Origin: a virus
IMG/VR virus record: IMGVR_UViG_3300011249_000001
Location: 1 to 37,123 of that record
Reading direction: 5' to 3' (one strand)
Length of the DNA stretch: 37,123 bases
Below, piece by piece: positions 1,561-35,145 of this stretch; position 1 is the stretch's first letter; every line of letters begins with the position of its first letter. The notes under the pieces are model-generated. The model saw only the letters and a list, made by a program, of their open reading frames with translations, ran no database searches and was not told where the DNA came from. The position numbers and the translations under genes are program-made.

Positions 1561-2208
1561 ATGATAGTGGTTGTTGGTGGAATCAAAGGTGGAAGTGGTA
1601 AAACGACTATAGCAACGAACTTAACAGTATTAAGATCTGCTAGCGGAAAGAAAGTTTTGCTTGTTGATGCTGATGAACAAAGAAGTGCATCTGATTGGGC
1701 ACACGAAAGAGAGAATAGTGGCATTGAAACAAAATGGTCTACAATACAACTTTGTGGTGATGCTGTTTACCCGCAATTAAAACGTATGTCTCTAGATTAC
1801 GATGATATTATTGTCGATGTTGGCGGAAGAGATACAATAAGTCAGCGCTCGGCCCTTAAGATTGCTGACGTCTTATTAGTTCCTTTTAAGCCTAGATCAT
1901 TAGATATATGGACAATCGGCAGCCTAAAAAAACTTCTGTCTGAAATGAAAGTCAGCAATGATAAACTTTTGGCTTATGCAATTATCAATCAAGCGGATTC
2001 ATGTGGTACAGACAATAAAGATTCCCAAGAAATTATTTCCGATTGTCCTTCTTTAAAATGCATCACAATTCCTATTGGACATCGTAAAGCATTTGCTAAT
2101 GCAGCGACTGAAGGTTTAGGTATTTCAGAGCTTAAAATCCAAGATAAAAAAGCACTTCAAGAATTACTTTTTCTTTACAATTCAATATATGATTCAAACG
2201 TAGGATAG
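1561..2208 (+). CDS. parA: ParA-family partition ATPase
   Basis: A 215-residue ATPase with the deviant Walker A motif GGIKGGSGKTT at residues 6-16 and the ParA box VLLVDADEQRSASDW at about 33-47. The Walker B-like segment DDIIVDVGG follows. The size and lack of an N-terminal helix-turn-helix place it with the short type Ib ParA/Soj-like proteins. Those do not bind their operator themselves and rely on a small RHH partner. It would power segregation of the circular genome between daughter cells. AGGAG lies 6 bases before the ATG. Repeat arrays flank the gene on both sides and the RHH partner follows, as in plasmid partition operons. Confidence 0.93.
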   Translation: MIVVVGGIKGGSGKTTIATNLTVLRSASGKKVLLVDADEQRSASDWAHERENSGIETKWSTIQLCGDAVYPQLKRMSLDYDDIIVDVGGRDTISQRSALKIADVLLVPFKPRSLDIWTIGSLKKLLSEMKVSNDKLLAYAIINQADSCGTDNKDSQEIISDCPSLKCITIPIGHRKAFANAATEGLGISELKIQDKKALQELLFLYNSIYDSNVG

Positions 2209-2213
2209 ATATT

Positions 2214-2268
2214 TTTTACATGCATTTAGCATGCGTTTTACATGCATAACACACGTATTTAACAAGCA
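2214..2268 (+). repeat. Second 11-bp repeat array, between parA and the RHH gene
   Basis: Five consecutive 11-bp units follow the parA stop: TTTTACATGCA, TTTAGCATGCG, TTTTACATGCA, TAACACACGTA and TTTAACAAGCA. The last two resemble the units upstream of parA. The final unit overlaps the ribosome site (AGG) of the RHH gene that starts 9 bases later. Binding of the RHH protein here could repress its own translation or transcription, or add to the centromere. Regular helical spacing is seen directly; binding is inferred. Confidence 0.7.
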
Positions 2269-2276
2269 GGATATAT

Positions 2277-2525
2277 ATGACCGTTAAAAGAAAGACTGAA
2301 AGATTAGAGATCGATAAAGATTCTATAATCTATAACGCAGCGCATGCACTTTCGGGTAATGAGAAAATAAAAAATAAGAAAGAATGGATGAATTTTTGTC
2401 TTAGAATTAAGTTAGAAATGTTAGCTCAAATTGACCAAGTTCTTGAGGATCGAGTTGGTATTTCAAAAACAGGATGGATGTTGGAAGCAATTCAAGAAAA
2501 ATTGAAAAGGGCAGAAAATGAATAA
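2277..2525 (+). CDS. RHH partition adaptor / centromere-binding protein (ParG-like)
   Basis: An 82-residue protein with a charged, probably flexible N-terminus of about 38 residues. The C-terminal segment looks like a ribbon-helix-helix: a beta strand (NFCLRIKLEM), helix A (LAQIDQVLEDRV), the turn residues GIS, then helix B (KTGWMLEAIQEKLKR). This layout matches ParG and related partners of short ParA proteins. Its place directly after parA, with 11-bp repeats on both sides of parA, supports a role as the centromere-binding and autoregulatory protein. I name it by architecture, not by close sequence match. Confidence 0.75.
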   Translation: MTVKRKTERLEIDKDSIIYNAAHALSGNEKIKNKKEWMNFCLRIKLEMLAQIDQVLEDRVGISKTGWMLEAIQEKLKRAENE

Positions 2526-2634
2526 TACATTGTCAAATTATTATTACTTATTCGAATTATCATTAGGTGAGATGAGTATTAATCATCTCTTTCTTCAGGT
2601 ATTATTTAAAAATAAAAAACATGAGTTAAAATGA
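2518..2634 (+). CDS. Small 38-residue ORF coupled to both neighbours
   Basis: ATG lies inside the last codons of the RHH gene, and the TGA stop overlaps the next ATG as ATGA. This is the classic layout for translational coupling. The product is MNNTLSNYYYLFELSLGEMS followed by INHLFLQVLFKNKKHELK. It is hydrophobic and aromatic with a basic end and resembles no family I know. It could be a real micro-protein or just a translated spacer that carries ribosomes to the ParB-like start, which lacks a strong ribosome site of its own. Confidence 0.45.
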   Translation: MNNTLSNYYYLFELSLGEMSINHLFLQVLFKNKKHELK

Positions 2635-3191
2635 TCGAAATACAAGAAATTCCCATTAAAGACTTAATTTTACTCGAACGCAATCCTCGAAAGATCTCAA
2701 AAGATCAAATGGATAAGCTTAAAGCTTCTATTCAAGATGATCCTAAATTTTTATGGTGCAGGCCTATTCTTGTTAACCAGGATGCGATTGGATCACCACT
2801 TCAAGTATATGCAGGTAATCAGAGAGTAAGAGCAGCAAAAGCACTTAAACGAAAGACAATCCCATGTATTGTTGAATGTGGCTTATCTGAAACGATTATG
2901 AAAGAACGTATTATTAAAGATAATGTGCATTATGGAACCTTCGACTTCGATATTTTAACTTGCGATTACGATATTCCAGAATTAATTTCATATGGATTCG
3001 AAATGCATGAATTGCACTTGACTCTTGGTGATGATGAATCAAAAGACACTGAAGAATTAAGTTCAGATGATACAGGATCTTTAGGTGTAAAATTTAATAT
3101 ATCAATACCTGAAGAAGATTCAACTTCTTTTAAAAATCAACTTGATGACTTGCTATTAAAGTTTCCTAGAGCTAAATTAAAGAAAAAATAG
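2631..3191 (+). CDS. ParB/Srx-fold protein
   Basis: A 186-residue protein whose first 110 residues form a ParB N-terminal (ParB/sulfiredoxin) domain. It has IPIKDLILLERNPRKIS, then PILVNQD, then the nucleotide-contacting box YAGNQRVRAAKAL, then IPCIV. The usual ParB helix-turn-helix domain is absent, and an acidic tail (DDESKDTEELSSDD) and a basic end (KLKKK) follow instead. Such shortened proteins are common just upstream of phage terminases as well as in plasmid loci. It could assist ParA, or act as a nuclease/CTPase-like DNA-packaging accessory. Position between the par genes and the terminase fits either role. Confidence 0.75.
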   Translation: MIEIQEIPIKDLILLERNPRKISKDQMDKLKASIQDDPKFLWCRPILVNQDAIGSPLQVYAGNQRVRAAKALKRKTIPCIVECGLSETIMKERIIKDNVHYGTFDFDILTCDYDIPELISYGFEMHELHLTLGDDESKDTEELSSDDTGSLGVKFNISIPEEDSTSFKNQLDDLLLKFPRAKLKKK

Positions 3192-5563: not shown

Positions 5564-6157
5564 ATGATAACACATCAAGAACATTTCGGTCGACTGTTTT
5601 ACCAAGACAAAAAAACAGGTTATTGGATATCAACTGATTATCCTCGTATTAGAGCACATAGATGGGTGTGGATTAGTTTACACGGGAAAATACCAATTGG
5701 TTATCATATCCATCATAAGAATGAAAATAAATCTGATAATAGGATTGAAAACATTGAACTGATAGAAGCTTCTAGACATATAAGTCATCATTACACGGAA
5801 GAAAACAGAGAAAGATCTAGATTACTTTGCGAAAAAATTCGCCCATTAACTAAAGCATGGCACGCAAGTGAAGAAGGTTTAGCTTGGCATAAAGCTCACG
5901 GGATTTTAACTTGGATTAATAAAGAACCTATAAAAATAATTTGCAAAGTTTGTCAAAAAGTAGCAGAAACCAAGATGTATCATCAAGAATTCTGCTCTAA
6001 TGCATGTAAAAGCAAATGGCGTAGAAACTCAGGAATTGATGATGTAGAGAAAGTATGCGGTCGTTGTGGAATTAAATTCATGAGCAATAAATATGCAAAA
6101 AATAAATACTGTTCAAAGGATTGCGGAATACGTTTAAGAGCAATTTTTAAAAGTTAA
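5564..6157 (+). CDS. HNH homing endonuclease with two C-terminal zinc fingers
   Basis: A 197-residue protein. The HNH_3-type core IPIGYHIHHKNENKSDNR, followed by IENIELIEASRHISHH, has the His-His pair, the two Asn and the final His of this nuclease family. Two Cys4 fingers follow (CKVCQ...CSNAC and CGRCG...CSKDC), which would add DNA contacts. Such proteins are free-standing or intron-encoded homing endonucleases in phages. No group I core is evident on either side and the flanking terminase and portal genes are whole, so I regard it as free-standing. It may cut intron-less or HNH-less relatives near the terminase-portal boundary. The ribosome site is weak. Confidence 0.87.
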   Translation: MITHQEHFGRLFYQDKKTGYWISTDYPRIRAHRWVWISLHGKIPIGYHIHHKNENKSDNRIENIELIEASRHISHHYTEENRERSRLLCEKIRPLTKAWHASEEGLAWHKAHGILTWINKEPIKIICKVCQKVAETKMYHQEFCSNACKSKWRRNSGIDDVEKVCGRCGIKFMSNKYAKNKYCSKDCGIRLRAIFKS

Positions 6158-10659: not shown

Positions 10660-10704
10660 TAGGGGTTGCAAATGTGAATTTGAACCCCTATATGTTATTT
10701 TTTT
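10660..10704 (+). terminator. Intrinsic terminator after the scaffold block
   Basis: Stem TAGGGGTT/AACCCCTA, one bulged G, then CAAAT/ATTTG closed by a GTGA tetraloop, followed by TATGTTATTTTTTT. This strong rightward terminator separates scaffold from capsid transcription. The leftward HNH gene ends within the T-run. Confidence 0.85.
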
Positions 10705-11357
10705 GGATTTGGTTTATTCTCTTGTTTTTGATAAGCACATTTGCGGCATTGAGTGCTTTTTCCAGATCTAAGATAATATCCGTTAACTTCTTTTTCATGC
10801 CCACAATGGCATCTACATAAATAAGTATTTCCTATACATCTTTTATATGAAACGAATTTTAGAACTGTCCATTTTCCCATTGTCTTTCCAATAATTTCAT
10901 CTTTATCAACAGGTATATTAGTTATTTCTGGCAAAGTTCCTTTCTTGAAGTTTTCTAAAATCCAATCAATGCCATATTGATCTTTAAACCATCTAAATTG
11001 ATTTTTTGTCCATCCAATCTTCTCTAAAAGAACTTGTTGGACTATTTCTTCAGAATTAATTTTATGTTTTTTTGTGGATCTTCTATTCCTAGAATTTATT
11101 TTCTTAGTAGTCCATCTGCAATTTTTTTTGCAATATCCTTTATTATTATCGATACGATCAATTTCAAACCCATCAGGACAATTTCCCATGTCAGAATAAA
11201 AGTTCACAAATTCTAACCATTCATTACTCACAGTTATTCCACGACCGCCATAATCTTTAAATTGAACATTTTTTTCATTCATACATCTATTTTTAAATGC
11301 TCTCCAACATTGATATTCTTTTGTTTTACACATGCCATGTGTTTTTCTAGGTGCCAT
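10695..11357 (-). CDS. Free-standing HNH-type endonuclease, leftward
   Basis: A 220-residue protein of a family common in phages. It has EYQCWRAFKNRCMNEKN, KDYGGRGITVSNEW, DMGNCPDGFEIDRIDNNKGY and the CRWTTKKINSRNRR ending of the HNH-like core. The C-terminal part has a separate zinc ribbon (CRCHCGHEKEV...CRKCA). Members are homing endonucleases or DNA-binding relatives. It lies only about 160 bases upstream of the intron-containing capsid gene and on the opposite strand. It could provide mobility to the ORF-less first intron; that is inference. A second, degenerate member of the family is at 34024-34494. Confidence 0.85.
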   Translation of the reverse strand: MAPRKTHGMCKTKEYQCWRAFKNRCMNEKNVQFKDYGGRGITVSNEWLEFVNFYSDMGNCPDGFEIDRIDNNKGYCKKNCRWTTKKINSRNRRSTKKHKINSEEIVQQVLLEKIGWTKNQFRWFKDQYGIDWILENFKKGTLPEITNIPVDKDEIIGKTMGKWTVLKFVSYKRCIGNTYLCRCHCGHEKEVNGYYLRSGKSTQCRKCAYQKQENKPNPKK

Positions 11358-11518: not shown

Positions 11519-11604
11519 ATGTCTATTACGACTACAGGGAACCTGGGTCCCATGATCCTACAAAGTTTAGCTCCAGCTATGCTTTATGTTCCTACCCCAA
11601 CGAT
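11519..11604 (+). CDS. Capsid exon 1
   Basis: Codes for the first 28 residues plus two bases of a codon, ending CAACGAT. The unspliced frame reads only three codons beyond the exon before a TAA. The 5' splice site is set by pairing of CAACGAT with GTCGTTG at 11650-11656, with U.G at the cut. Confidence 0.8.
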
Positions 11605-13943
11605 GGCAGTTTAACTATATCATGCACAAATGTTTTGTGCAATATATTCGTCGTTGTAAAATCTCTTCTGATGGACTTGAATCCCTGACCAAGTAATGTT
11701 GAAGGCAACAAGGCGCAAGCCGGCGAAAGCTTTGCAGCGTGAACGTAGCAAGCGAAGAGACCACTTAATTAAGTGGATGCGGTGCTCTGAACTCTATGGA
11801 AACATAGAGAATTCGACAGAAATGATCGGATAGGTACTTAAGTACCTTAACAACAAGGAATTACATTACTGTGTGTGACAAAGTATCAATGCCAGCTAAT
11901 GGCGGTACTACTTGCAGATTTATGCGCCCTCGTGCGATACAGCCACCTACTGTACAATTAGGTAATGCGGGTATTGATCCACCTGCACAGGTACCACAAA
12001 GGGATATAATTGATGCTCAGATGGCGTTTTTCGGTTGCATTGCCAGTGCCGAAATGATCCTAGATTATGCTTATAGACTGGCTGCATAATCAACGAACAA
12101 GTCATTTTGCAAGACCAAGAGGGAGTTCTCGCTTGGGTTTCAGAAAGACTTGCCGTAGCCATGCGTCAAGCAGAGGATTTGATTTTACGAGATTATATCG
12201 TATCAGCAGCTTCTCAGATTAACGCAGGTGGTGGATCCAACGGTAGAGTTATTGCCGTTGTAAAATCAGACCTAATCGACTTGGAACTCTTACCACGTCA
12301 TGGTGAAGACAACAAGGCGGAACCCGAAAGGGACCGTGAACGACTAAAGCGGTCAGACACCGAAAGGTGAAGCGATAGTCTAATCTCATAGGAAACTATG
12401 AGAGGTGGCAGAAATGACCACCCGCTTAAATGTTTAAATACCTTTACGATTAAGAATATGAACTTTATGAAAAATAGTGTCCCTCATAGTGAGTATATCA
12501 GCATAGAATTCTTTAAATTTTGGAGAATTTCTGCTTATGTTTCCTTGCAATGGAGTCGTTGTTTCATAAAATTTCATCAGTTCAACACAAACAATTTTTT
12601 TGTGTTTGATATAAGGAAATATTCTTGGAAGCAACTCACCGAGAGATTTACTGGAAATTCTGTAAGTCAAAAAATCTCGATGATTAATGTTTTTGGAACG
12701 ACGTTCTACAAAATGAACTTGTCCTCCAAATCGCTCAAGAAGCCATTTAAAAATGGGAAGTTTGGTATTGCCACATTGAAGAAGGATTTTGTAAATAAAG
12801 TTATCGCGATTTTTAGAGTTGTACCTAAATACACCAAGTGCACATTCAGCATCTATAAAACCTGCGAAATAAGCAAAATCCAAATCACTAGGGCACAAAG
12901 TCAAGATACACTCTTGAAGATTATTCTTATGAGATTTTTTGACCAAATTACATTCATTTTTAACTTCCTTAAGTCGATTCATCAGAATCTCTTTTTCTTC
13001 ACGAGAAAAAGATTTAATGAATTTGCAGTAAATTTCAGCTTCTTCTCGTTTTTCAATAAGAAATGGCAAAATTTGCTGAACAAATTTAATGGATTTTTTT
13101 CCTCTAATCACAAAATGATGTTGAGGTTTCCATATAGAAGATCTTTTTCCATTATGCACTATGCGTCGAATACCTGGGAAAGTCTTTACAAGGAACTCAA
13201 TAATATCAGTATCTGTAGAAGAGATGATGAAAGAACAAGAATATTTGGCTATACCAGTAGATTTTCGGATTGTTTTTCTTATATGAAAACATCCATCTCC
13301 ATCGGTGTAACCAGCTGTGTAAGCTAAAGTGTATTTATCGATCATGTTATTATTGTAACAAGATCAAGCGTTTAAGTCAACAAGTAATAGAATGTATAAC
13401 CCAACTAACTTAGGAGTCTCAGACTTCTCATTAGTTGCTACAACTCTTGATAGTAACAATGCTTATAAATTCATGTCTGGTATTGAAGGCATGGATAGAT
13501 TTGGAACAGGTCCAGTTCGTTCAGCATATTTTATGCTTAGTTCGACTGAACTTCAGTCCGATTTTGATTCTTTAGTGGGTGCAGGATTCCTTTCACAATG
13601 GAACTATCCTACGAATGCATCTGCTTTGGCAAGTGAATATGGATCAATATTTAATATCCGTATTTTGACAAGTTCGGAAGCACCTGTAGCAAGAAATAGT
13701 GTTGCAAATAACGTTGGTACTTTGAATGACGTATATTACAACACAGTTTTAGGTAAACAGGCTATTACGCATATTAATCAGGATGGTTTCTCGATGAATT
13801 TAATTTATCGTGATCCTTATTACTCTGGTATGCTAGCTCAGAATGCAACCTTGGCAGTTAAATTTGCTCAAGCTCAAGCTATTACGCAAGATACGGCTAT
13901 CCGTAATTTGTTAAGTACACGCTTAAGCAATTTGGGGGTATAA
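11519..13943 (+). CDS. Major capsid (coat) protein, split gene of four exons
   Basis: Exons 11519-11604, 11858-12035, 12077-12244 and 13395-13943 join in frame to a protein of about 326 residues. It opens MSITTTGNLGPMILQSLAP, continues VSMPANGGTT, then IDAQMAFFG, INEQV, and FGTGPVRSAYF. These are the landmarks of the P22-coat/N4-gp56-like family found in phages of this type, and the joined length fits the family as I know it. Each junction is supported by reading frame, alignment to the family pattern and pairing of an intron guide with both exons. Without removal of the second interruption translation would stop at TAA 12087-12089. Located after scaffold, as expected. Confidence 0.85.
11605..11857 (+). 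ncRNA. Group I intron 1 in the capsid gene (253 nt, no ORF)
   Basis: P1: exon CAACGAT pairs with GTCGTTG (11650-11656), U.G at the splice site. P10: ATTC (11646-11649) pairs with the first four bases of exon 2, GAAT. The last intron base is G, as required. Core-like elements include a GGC-GCAA-GCC hairpin at 11712-11721, a 16-bp palindrome CCACTTAATTAAGTGG (11761-11776), and CTCTATG-GAAA-CATAGAG (11792-11809) followed by GACAGAAATGATC. A 14-bp palindrome lies at 11833-11846. It strongly resembles intron 3. It holds no reading frame. Exact P3-P8 pairing needs a covariance search. Confidence 0.85.
11858..12035 (+). CDS. Capsid exon 2
   Basis: The first base completes an ATG codon with the last two bases of exon 1, then NYITVCDKVSMPANGGTT follows. 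The spacing between VPTPT and MPANGG then matches the family. A splice at G11875 would also be in frame but drops six residues and loses the P10 pairing. The exon ends MAFFG with TTTCGGT. Confidence 0.75.
12036..12076 (+). other. 41-nt frame-breaking interruption with a group I-like guide but no core
   Basis: After exon TTTCGGT come 41 bases that shift the frame. Within them GCCGAAA (12048-12054) pairs with TTTCGGT over 7 bp with U.G at the cut. The adjacent GCCAGT (12042-12047) pairs perfectly with ACTGGC, the next six bases after the interruption. It ends in G. The guide is thus complementary to the ligated junction, exactly as P1 and P10 of a group I intron. Only 22 bases follow the guide, so there is no room for a catalytic core. 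Nine bases (GAAATGATC) equal a segment near the end of intron 1. Removal restores FFG-TGCIINEQV, the length expected for the family. Confidence 0.7.
12077..12244 (+). CDS. Capsid exon 3
   Basis: Fifty-six codons from TGCIINEQVILQDQEG to QINAGGGSNG, entirely open and matching the coat family's central segment (INEQV, then a helix with RQAEDLILRDY). It ends CAACGGT, which is almost the same sequence that ends exon 1 (CAACGAT). Confidence 0.8.
12245..13394 (+). ncRNA. Group I intron 3 in the capsid gene (1150 nt) with an antisense LAGLIDADG gene
   Basis: P1: exon CAACGGT pairs with GCCGTTG (12254-12260), U.G at the cut. P10: GTTAT (12248-12252) pairs with ATAAC at bases 2-6 of exon 4. The intron ends in G. 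Core-like hairpins are CCC-GAAA-GGG (12323-12332), CACC-GAAA-GGTG (12358-12369) and CTCATAG-GAAA-CTATGAG (12385-12402), then GGCAGAAATGACC. CAGAC and GTCT around the second hairpin would make P7, the guanosine site. A LAGLIDADG gene on the other strand fills the 3' part. Confidence 0.9.
12434..13345 (-). CDS. LAGLIDADG homing endonuclease, antisense inside intron 3
   Basis: A 303-residue, two-motif (monomeric) LAGLIDADG protein. Motif one is LAYTAGYTDGDGCF at residues 7-20 and motif two FAYFAGFIDAECALG at 157-171. The catalytic acids are D of TDGDG and D/E of IDAE. It would cut intron-less capsid alleles at the exon 3/exon 4 junction and so spread the intron. It is encoded on the strand opposite to the intron, so it cannot be made from the capsid pre-mRNA and needs its own leftward promoter near the 3' end of the intron. 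The ribosome site is weak. The frame is intact, suggesting recent activity. Confidence 0.92.
   Translation of the reverse strand: MIDKYTLAYTAGYTDGDGCFHIRKTIRKSTGIAKYSCSFIISSTDTDIIEFLVKTFPGIRRIVHNGKRSSIWKPQHHFVIRGKKSIKFVQQILPFLIEKREEAEIYCKFIKSFSREEKEILMNRLKEVKNECNLVKKSHKNNLQECILTLCPSDLDFAYFAGFIDAECALGVFRYNSKNRDNFIYKILLQCGNTKLPIFKWLLERFGGQVHFVERRSKNINHRDFLTYRISSKSLGELLPRIFPYIKHKKIVCVELMKFYETTTPLQGNISRNSPKFKEFYADILTMRDTIFHKVHILNRKGI
13395..13943 (+). CDS. Capsid exon 4
   Basis: Codes for 182 residues from YNPTNLGVSDFS to the C-terminus. Includes the family's strongest segments (MDRFGTGPVRSAYFML, then a SEYGSIFNIRIL motif, then NQDGFSMNLIYRDPYYSG). An ATG overlaps the end of the intron (13392) and could be mistaken for a gene start. 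The next gene begins one base after the stop. Confidence 0.88.
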   Translation, partial: YNPTNLGVSDFSLVATTLDSNNAYKFMSGIEGMDRFGTGPVRSAYFMLSSTELQSDFDSLVGAGFLSQWNYPTNASALASEYGSIFNIRILTSSEAPVARNSVANNVGTLNDVYYNTVLGKQAITHINQDGFSMNLIYRDPYYSGMLAQNATLAVKFAQAQAITQDTAIRNLLSTRLSNLGV

Positions 13944-34536: not shown

Positions 34537-34552
34537 TATAATATACGTATAT
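34537..34552 (+). promoter_or_regulatory. TATAAT box and 12-bp palindrome upstream of the toxin-antitoxin pair
   Basis: TATAAT (34537-34542) overlaps the palindrome ATATACGTATAT (34541-34552). The placement is right for an operator bound by the antitoxin or toxin-antitoxin complex. No good -35 is seen. Confidence 0.55.
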
Positions 34553-34580
34553 GATACATAGTATGGACCAAGGAGAATAT

Positions 34581-34823
34581 ATGAGAAAAGTTCCAATCAC
34601 TATTACTTTACCTGAGAATTTGATAAGAGATTTACATTCCTATATTCCAGGAAGAGGGATAAGTGGTTTTGTCTCAATTCTTATTCAGAAAGGATTAGAA
34701 GAAAAAAAATGCAGTGTTGCTAAGCAATATAGAGAAGCTGCTGCTGATGAAGAAAGAAATAAAGAAGCCGCTGAATGGGATATATTTATAGGGGACGGTT
34801 TGGATGAAACAAACGAATATTAA
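34581..34823 (+). CDS. Antitoxin with RHH domain
   Basis: An 80-residue protein starting at the ATG with AAGGAG 5 bases upstream; an in-frame ATG 30 bases earlier lies in the operator and lacks a ribosome site. KVPITITLPENLIRDLHSYI and GISGFVSILIQKGLEEKK give a ribbon-helix-helix fold for DNA binding. The acidic C-terminal part (AADEERNKEAAEWDIFIG) would wrap around and block the toxin. It overlaps the toxin gene by 20 bases. Together they form a type II module with autorepression at the upstream palindrome. Confidence 0.85.
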   Translation: MRKVPITITLPENLIRDLHSYIPGRGISGFVSILIQKGLEEKKCSVAKQYREAAADEERNKEAAEWDIFIGDGLDETNEY

Positions 34824-35145
34824 ACGCGGTGATATATTTTGGGTTGATTTTGATCCTTCGACTGGCACTGAGACAAGAAAGAAAAGACCCGCATTGATCT
34901 GCTCCCATGATGATATGAATGAAAATTCAAATAGAGTGATCGTTGCACCTATAACATCGAAACTAAAGAAAGTATACGCCTTTGAATATGAAATTTCTGA
35001 TCATTCTTTTGTGACTGGGAAGGCAATGATCGATCAGCTCAAAGCCGTAGATAAAACAAGAATAGGTACAAAAATTGGAAGCCTTCATTTAAAAGAGATG
35101 AATGAGGTTGATACAATTATTAAATTTGTTTTGGGGTTAAAATGA
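34804..35145 (+). CDS. PemK/MazF-family toxin
   Basis: A 113-residue protein with the family markers IKRGDIFWVDFDPSTGTETRK, KRPALICSHDD, RVIVAPITSK and KAMIDQLKAVDKTRI. The conserved Arg of KKRPALI and the Thr/Ser of APITS are present. PemK/MazF toxins cut mRNA at short sequences in the cytoplasm, stopping growth when the antitoxin decays. The module would keep the circular genome in its host or protect against other phages. Length is normal and the frame intact. Confidence 0.9.
   Translation: MKQTNIKRGDIFWVDFDPSTGTETRKKRPALICSHDDMNENSNRVIVAPITSKLKKVYAFEYEISDHSFVTGKAMIDQLKAVDKTRIGTKIGSLHLKEMNEVDTIIKFVLGLK

Follow-up and report, generated by a model that had tools for sequence, protein, structure and literature searches.

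Organization of the capsid gene

The window, which is the whole stretch of DNA analysed here (37,123 nucleotides, positions 1 to 37,123 of IMG/VR record IMGVR_UViG_3300011249_000001), carries a gene that matches PHROG 1357, a phage major head protein family. The frame of this gene is broken by 41 bases at positions 12036-12076, flanked by TTTCGGT (to 12035) and ACTGGC (from 12077). We refer to this insert as a mini-intron, and it lies between two full group I introns, intron 1 upstream and intron 3 downstream. The predicted features are as follows.

11519-11604, + strand: capsid exon 1, ending CAACGAT^ (pairs with GTCGTTG in P1; splicing gives PTMNYITVCDK, which intact relatives also have)
11605-11857, + strand: intron 1, full group I intron of 253 nt, core match at 11655-11793 (core model R1, E = 8e-15)
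11858-12035, + strand: capsid exon 2, its final 7 nt, TTTCGGT (12029-12035), forming the P1 exon strand
12036-12076, + strand: mini-intron, core-less, 41 nt, terminal G (family comparison, boundary rule, guide pairing)
12042-12054, + strand: guide of 13 nt, GCCAGT (P10′) plus GCCGAAA (P1′, G opposite exon U) (pairing, covariation)
12056-12060, + strand: docking segment D, GATCC, complementary to exon GGATC at 12233-12237 (5 bp only here)
12063-12070, + strand: GATTATGC, pairing with exon GCATAATC at 12084-12091 in a local hairpin that encloses the 3′ splice site
12077-12244, + strand: capsid exon 3, with ACTGGC at 12077-12082 (P10) and GGATC at 12233-12237 (docking target)
12078-12089, + strand: end of the unspliced frame, CTG GCT GCA TAA, giving ...DYAYRLAA-stop, an ssrA-like tail
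12238-12244, + strand: end of exon 3, CAACGGT, the P1 exon strand of intron 3
12245-13394, + strand: intron 3, the partner full group I intron, internal guide sequence (IGS) GCCGTTG at 12254-12260, core match at 12259-12386
12434-13345, − strand: LAGLIDADG homing endonuclease ORF within intron 3 (Pfam PF00961, E = 8e-8)
13395-13943, + strand: capsid exon 4 (PHROG 1357 major head protein)

The coordinates of the interruption and the pairings of its two-part guide, first proposed from the letters of this DNA, were reproduced in the window: GCCAGT pairs with ACTGGC at 12077-12082 (P10) and GCCGAAA with TTTCGGT at 12029-12035 (P1), with a U·G pair at the cut. The sequence-only reading had also taken GAAATGATC, common to the mini-intron and intron 1, as a sign of descent; it is better explained by GAAA belonging to the guide and GATCC to the docking segment.

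Elsewhere in the window, two free-standing HNH endonuclease genes were observed, one before the portal gene (5564-6157) and a minus-strand one immediately ahead of the capsid gene (10695-11357). Genes for a ParA-like ATPase, a ParB_N protein and a PemK/MazF-like toxin with a ribbon-helix-helix partner (1561-3191 and 34551-35145) suggest a plasmid-like prophage state.

Mini-introns occur at four sites in related capsid genes

The joined protein, used to scan IMG/VR, returned 207 related stretches, 80 of which were kept. All 80 of these insert-less relatives read GGT^ACN continuously and encode an unbroken FFGTG, so exact excision of 41 nt restores the family protein at the very junction that had been predicted. 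A pattern requiring a non-A base after FFG matched 26 contigs, in 25 of which a short insert occupies precisely this site, and a second, guide-based pattern yielded further mini-intron contigs together with L108, in which a full-length group I intron of 712 nt occupies the mini-intron's own site (residue 84). The comparison of related phages with and without the 41 bases thus yielded both kinds, 80 uninterrupted and approximately 35 loci interrupted at the exact site, and the presence of the same architecture in contigs from many metagenomes rules out an assembly error.

We then ran a purpose-written spliced aligner (protein against DNA, introns permitted anywhere) on 227 loci. It placed mini-introns in the capsid gene at residues 84 (35 loci), 88 (11), 100 (8) and 110 (2); long introns occupied over 30 distinct sites. 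Approximately 45 other phages carry a 29-79-nt insert at one of the four mini-intron sites, and removal of duplicates left 51 mini-introns for analysis, 29-79 nt long and spread over 46 genes, that of the window among them. Five candidates proved to be unrelated genes (L098, L110, L113, L115 and L120) and one to be aligner noise within an endonuclease ORF (L135); small 'introns' at sites 86, 90, 96, 118, 121, 143-149, 177 and 179 were contig ends or noise and were left uncounted. In most site-84 members, the two inserts are separated by a microexon of 26-39 nt, which cannot be a separate gene.

Several further observations concern the relatives. In the related loci (L002-L232), the capsid gene is an intron hotspot, unlike the portal and terminase genes: no similar insert was found in 104 full-length matches to the portal gene, and the same check of the terminase gene gave one interrupted case (L217). 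L108 has tandem group I introns (712 and 502 nt) at residues 84 and 93 that are partly near-identical, the first of which looks internally duplicated; this arrangement is a plausible ancestor state for core loss. Searches for relatives among GenBank phages, by DNA and by protein, found none. Capsid relatives were also present in metagenome-assembled genome (MAG) contigs labelled Nitrospiraceae, Bacteroidales, Chlamydiia, Pseudomonadota and Peregrinibacteria (L233-L237), and because five different host groups came out, these contigs are probably misbinned.

Boundaries and guides follow group I rules

Each of the 51 mini-introns can be positioned such that a U precedes the insert and a G ends it while the spliced protein is left unchanged (chance approximately 0.28 each), and in all 51 a guide G lies opposite the exon U. 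An insert found at the exact site in approximately 35 loci, at three further sites and with this boundary rule in every member is not a product of chance. The guides formed a mean of 10.7 Watson-Crick pairs with their own flanks, compared with 8.4 for same-site flanks taken from other phages and 2.95 for shuffled inserts, and own flanks paired better than those of others in 48 of 51 cases. P1 spans 6-9 bp in all mini-introns and P10 4-9 bp in 49 of 51. The guide also changes with the exon at synonymous positions: the Thr codon, for example, may end in T, A, G or C, and the guide matches this base in 29 of 29. These comparisons establish the exact site, the boundaries and the covarying guide. 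Many site-84 members also have the 3′ splice site within a local hairpin, formed in the window by GATTATGC and GCATAATC.

Mini-introns therefore resemble group I introns (Rfam RF00028) in having a U·G at the 5′ splice site, a guide forming P1 and P10 and a terminal guanosine. They differ in lacking the catalytic core P3-P8, as 29-79 nt leaves no space for a core of 117 positions, and in an extra pairing to the 5′ exon of a downstream group I intron. The GUGYG boundary of group II and group III introns is absent from their 5′ ends, which vary (TGCATT, CGATTG, GGTTCC and others), and their last base is G. By this membership test, the mini-intron is not a group I intron, its core being absent, and it would instead work like one with a borrowed core.

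The same data bear on two other readings that had been raised for the window. One is a core-deleted intron that killed the gene, leaving a dead remnant. The insert does lack a core and is followed by an in-frame stop; yet approximately 45 other phages carry the insert with intact downstream frames that show purifying selection, and compensatory changes keep the guide covarying with its exons. Of the differences seen in the microexon region of mini-bearing genes, 96% affect the third base of a codon. As the downstream exons of such genes keep coding selection, the capsid gene is not dead, and we give a dead remnant practically no credence.

The other is a ribosomal bypass as in T4 gene 60, in which ribosomes would exit at GGT and land downstream, with the insert kept in the mRNA. 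Like the gene 60 element, an insert of approximately 50 nt that breaks a phage gene, some mini-introns are close to 47-50 nt long; structure connects the take-off and landing regions, and a GGC is present at 12080. The landing triplets, however, never match the take-off codon: the three nucleotides before ACN are AAG, TAG, GCG, TTG, AGG, ACG or ATG, and in 0 of 31 site-84 inserts do they form a Gly codon. Landing at GGC would lose the Thr-Gly that is conserved in 80 of 80 relatives. Inserts at site 88 interrupt a codon, that for Ile, such that codon-wise landing would read AGA or TGA (Arg or stop). Bypass also leaves the terminal G, the U·G pair and the obligatory downstream group I intron unexplained, and we regard it as highly improbable. 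Mini-introns thus differ from the gene 60 element in having no matched codons, in an inferred removal at the RNA level and in that the insert may fall inside a codon.

Mini-introns occur together with a downstream group I intron

A long intron lies downstream in 38 of 38 complete genes with a mini-intron, compared with 23 of 97 genes without one (22 of 84 in a less selected sample), and the nearest such intron is 21-168 nt away. None of the nine genes with upstream long introns only has a mini-intron. A FastTree tree of 135 genes shows 31 changes in mini-intron presence; in independent pairs on this tree, the downstream intron goes the same way in approximately 12.6 and the opposite way in none. 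The comparison thereby establishes a partner intron as obligatory.

At the gathering threshold, Rfam reported nothing in the window or in 11 loci. Because a group I match appeared weakly below that threshold (L084, E = 0.019), we built a core model for the purpose. An alignment of 20 long introns gave P3-P6 of the group I core, with double-sided changes in 17 of 20 pairs, and P7 strands (GACTA...TAGTC) are visible in long introns that the model misses. The partner's core is the only one that the model, which misses ORF-split cores, found in the L084 and L109 contigs, and a scan of six insert-less relatives with the same model, again subject to its missing ORF-split cores, found no core. Since model R1 misses such cores, some genomes may contain group I cores in other places. 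A weak match, below gathering, to the LOOT RNA (RF03000, E = 0.0027) in a segment of the L084 partner intron (L084:2945-3057) prompts one to ask whether LOOT RNA overlaps with pieces of group I introns.

These distributions speak to whether the mini-intron could itself be a small ribozyme that splices itself, with guide, docking helix and exon as its parts and no need of the neighbour's core. Its compact, covarying pairing with both exons would suit such an activity. A full group I intron downstream in every complete gene, the lack of mini-introns in genes with upstream introns only, a 3′ half that follows the partner's site (see below) and members as short as 29 nt all argue against it, and we consider self-splicing improbable.

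An alternative reason for the co-occurrence is joint spread as one homing cassette, in which the mini-intron blocks re-cleavage and is removed by unspecified means. Strict co-occurrence would follow from such spread, the window's partner intron contains an endonuclease ORF, and the T4 gene 60 insert is reportedly part of a homing cassette. The combinations are nevertheless modular: site-84 mini-introns pair with introns at 93, 95, 98, 116, 119 and 140, and the intron at 119 occurs with mini-introns at 84, 88, 100 and 110. Co-transfer alone also does not predict partner-specific pairing. We therefore view a homing cassette as an unlikely explanation, if somewhat less so than self-splicing.

Mini-introns are complementary to the partner's 5′ exon

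The 3′ half of the mini-intron, from the guide to the terminal G, includes a segment that is complementary to an exon stretch that abuts the exon strand of the partner's P1. This docking complementarity is present whether the partner lies at residue 93, 95, 98, 113, 116, 119 or 140. With near partners, it averaged 7.6 Watson-Crick bp compared with 2.9 for shuffled sequences (200 shuffles, maximum 3.7), and with far partners 5.7 compared with 1.8 (maximum 2.8). When all candidate sites of each gene were scored, the true partner was strictly best in 31 of 46 pairs, compared with 10.4 for permuted partners (5,000 permutations, maximum 21), in a matching test that reuses the data that suggested docking. 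The docking score, window and slack were picked after the pattern had been seen. Another candidate site outscored that of the partner in 10 of 46 pairs, mostly since the local hairpin overlaps the site-93 target. In the window, the docking segment is only 5 bp (GATCC:GGATC), and the local hairpin with the exon is longer; L109, a relative of the window, has the docking segment GAACC with a matching change in the exon. The complementarity is thus established as partner-dependent across the family.

The sequence-only reading had offered, as one possibility, that the core of either neighbouring intron cuts the mini-intron. The occurrence of a downstream partner in 38 of 38 genes and the docking pairing strongly support removal by a neighbour, with intron 3 (12245-13394) rather than intron 1 as the partner.

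Unspliced reading frames end in a degron-like tail

Read unspliced and in frame, 44 of 51 mini-introns lead to a product ending ...AA-stop and five more to one ending in a single A; in each of the other two frames, 0 of 51 end ...AA-stop. Long introns show the same ending in 64 of 143 cases in frame, compared with 1 of 144 in each other frame, and an in-frame ...AA-stop is thereby established for both kinds of element. Some tails read ...AEQYALAA or ...EYALLAAA, much like the tmRNA tag. In two loci, L176 (site 75) and L178 (site 213), the P6 loop within the group I core is expanded and encodes ...AQAEQYALAA-stop, replacing the usual GAAA loop.

The tail was found in 0 of 20 introns before residue 40. 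Among later long introns, it was present in 50 of 62 without a tagged element in the preceding 180 nt and in 14 of 57 with one; from these counts, the mini-intron seems to carry the tag both for itself and for its partner. The window conforms, as its unspliced product ends ...DYAYRLAA (stop at 12087-12089), whereas intron 1, which is early, and intron 3, which follows the mini-intron, are both untagged. With an in-frame C-terminal end of the LAA type, the tail is a putative ssrA-like degron and would be expected to direct the truncated capsid protein to ClpXP-type proteases. It resembles the ssrA tag in its C-terminal ...LAA or ...YALAA; that tag is added by trans-translation, whereas here it is encoded in frame by the mRNA's own intron.

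A model for a satellite intron

The mini-intron is probably a satellite (non-autonomous) intron that follows group I chemistry by means of the core of the downstream intron 3 and additionally carries a degradation tag. From sequence comparison and knowledge of group I introns, we infer its splicing, its use of the partner's core, the order of events and proteolysis. The mini-intron would contribute only the parts of a substrate, namely the terminal G and a guide that pairs with the 5′ exon as P1 and with the 3′ exon as P10. Pairing of its 3′ half beside the partner's P1 would hold the mini-intron's P1 near the partner core, which would perform both steps on the mini-intron and then splice itself out, all within one transcript. 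The mini-intron would be expected to leave before the partner intron, because the core departs with the latter. Before removal, ribosomes on the nascent RNA would stop in or just after the mini-intron and yield a truncated capsid protein ending ...LAA.

Removal could also be protein-based, by an endonuclease and an RNA ligase with the guide as a splint that brings the exon ends into line for ligation. Neither an RNA ligase nor a splicing endonuclease was found among the ten non-structural window proteins scanned, and such a route leaves the group I boundary rules and the partner intron unexplained; we hold it to be improbable, slightly more so than self-splicing and slightly less so than bypass.

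On balance, we lean towards a broader interpretation of the satellite intron, in which it belongs to a natural two-part system: one core would remove two introns in order, the docked satellite would carry a degron, and full group I introns in the gene would use degrons too. Trans-splicing group I ribozymes have been engineered, and split group I introns occur in organelles; the literature retrieved on such systems consisted mainly of engineered cases. As in those systems, the core would act on a splice site not directly joined to it; here, in contrast, the guide lies in the substrate and there are two separate excision units in one natural mRNA. To our knowledge, only in vitro work has shown a core using a P1 hairpin that lacks the usual connection to it. 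The group III introns of Euglena chloroplasts are degenerate group II introns and offer another parallel, being tiny, having lost their core and being thought to receive parts from elsewhere, although they belong to the group II lineage and follow other boundary rules. A search of the open-access literature found neither a natural core-less group I intron nor an intron-encoded degron.

If this model is correct, no introns of group I type smaller than these would be known, and mini-introns would form the group I equivalent of the degenerate group III introns; we know of no earlier natural intron of group I type that borrows the catalytic core of another intron. They would show that the substrate and core of a ribozyme can separate and still function; proposals for how the spliceosome arose often include such a step. 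Where translation is coupled to transcription, ribosomes read unspliced mRNA, and how phages deal with this is an old question. The ...LAA tails suggest how they cope with such ribosomes: the faulty capsid fragment is tagged in frame.
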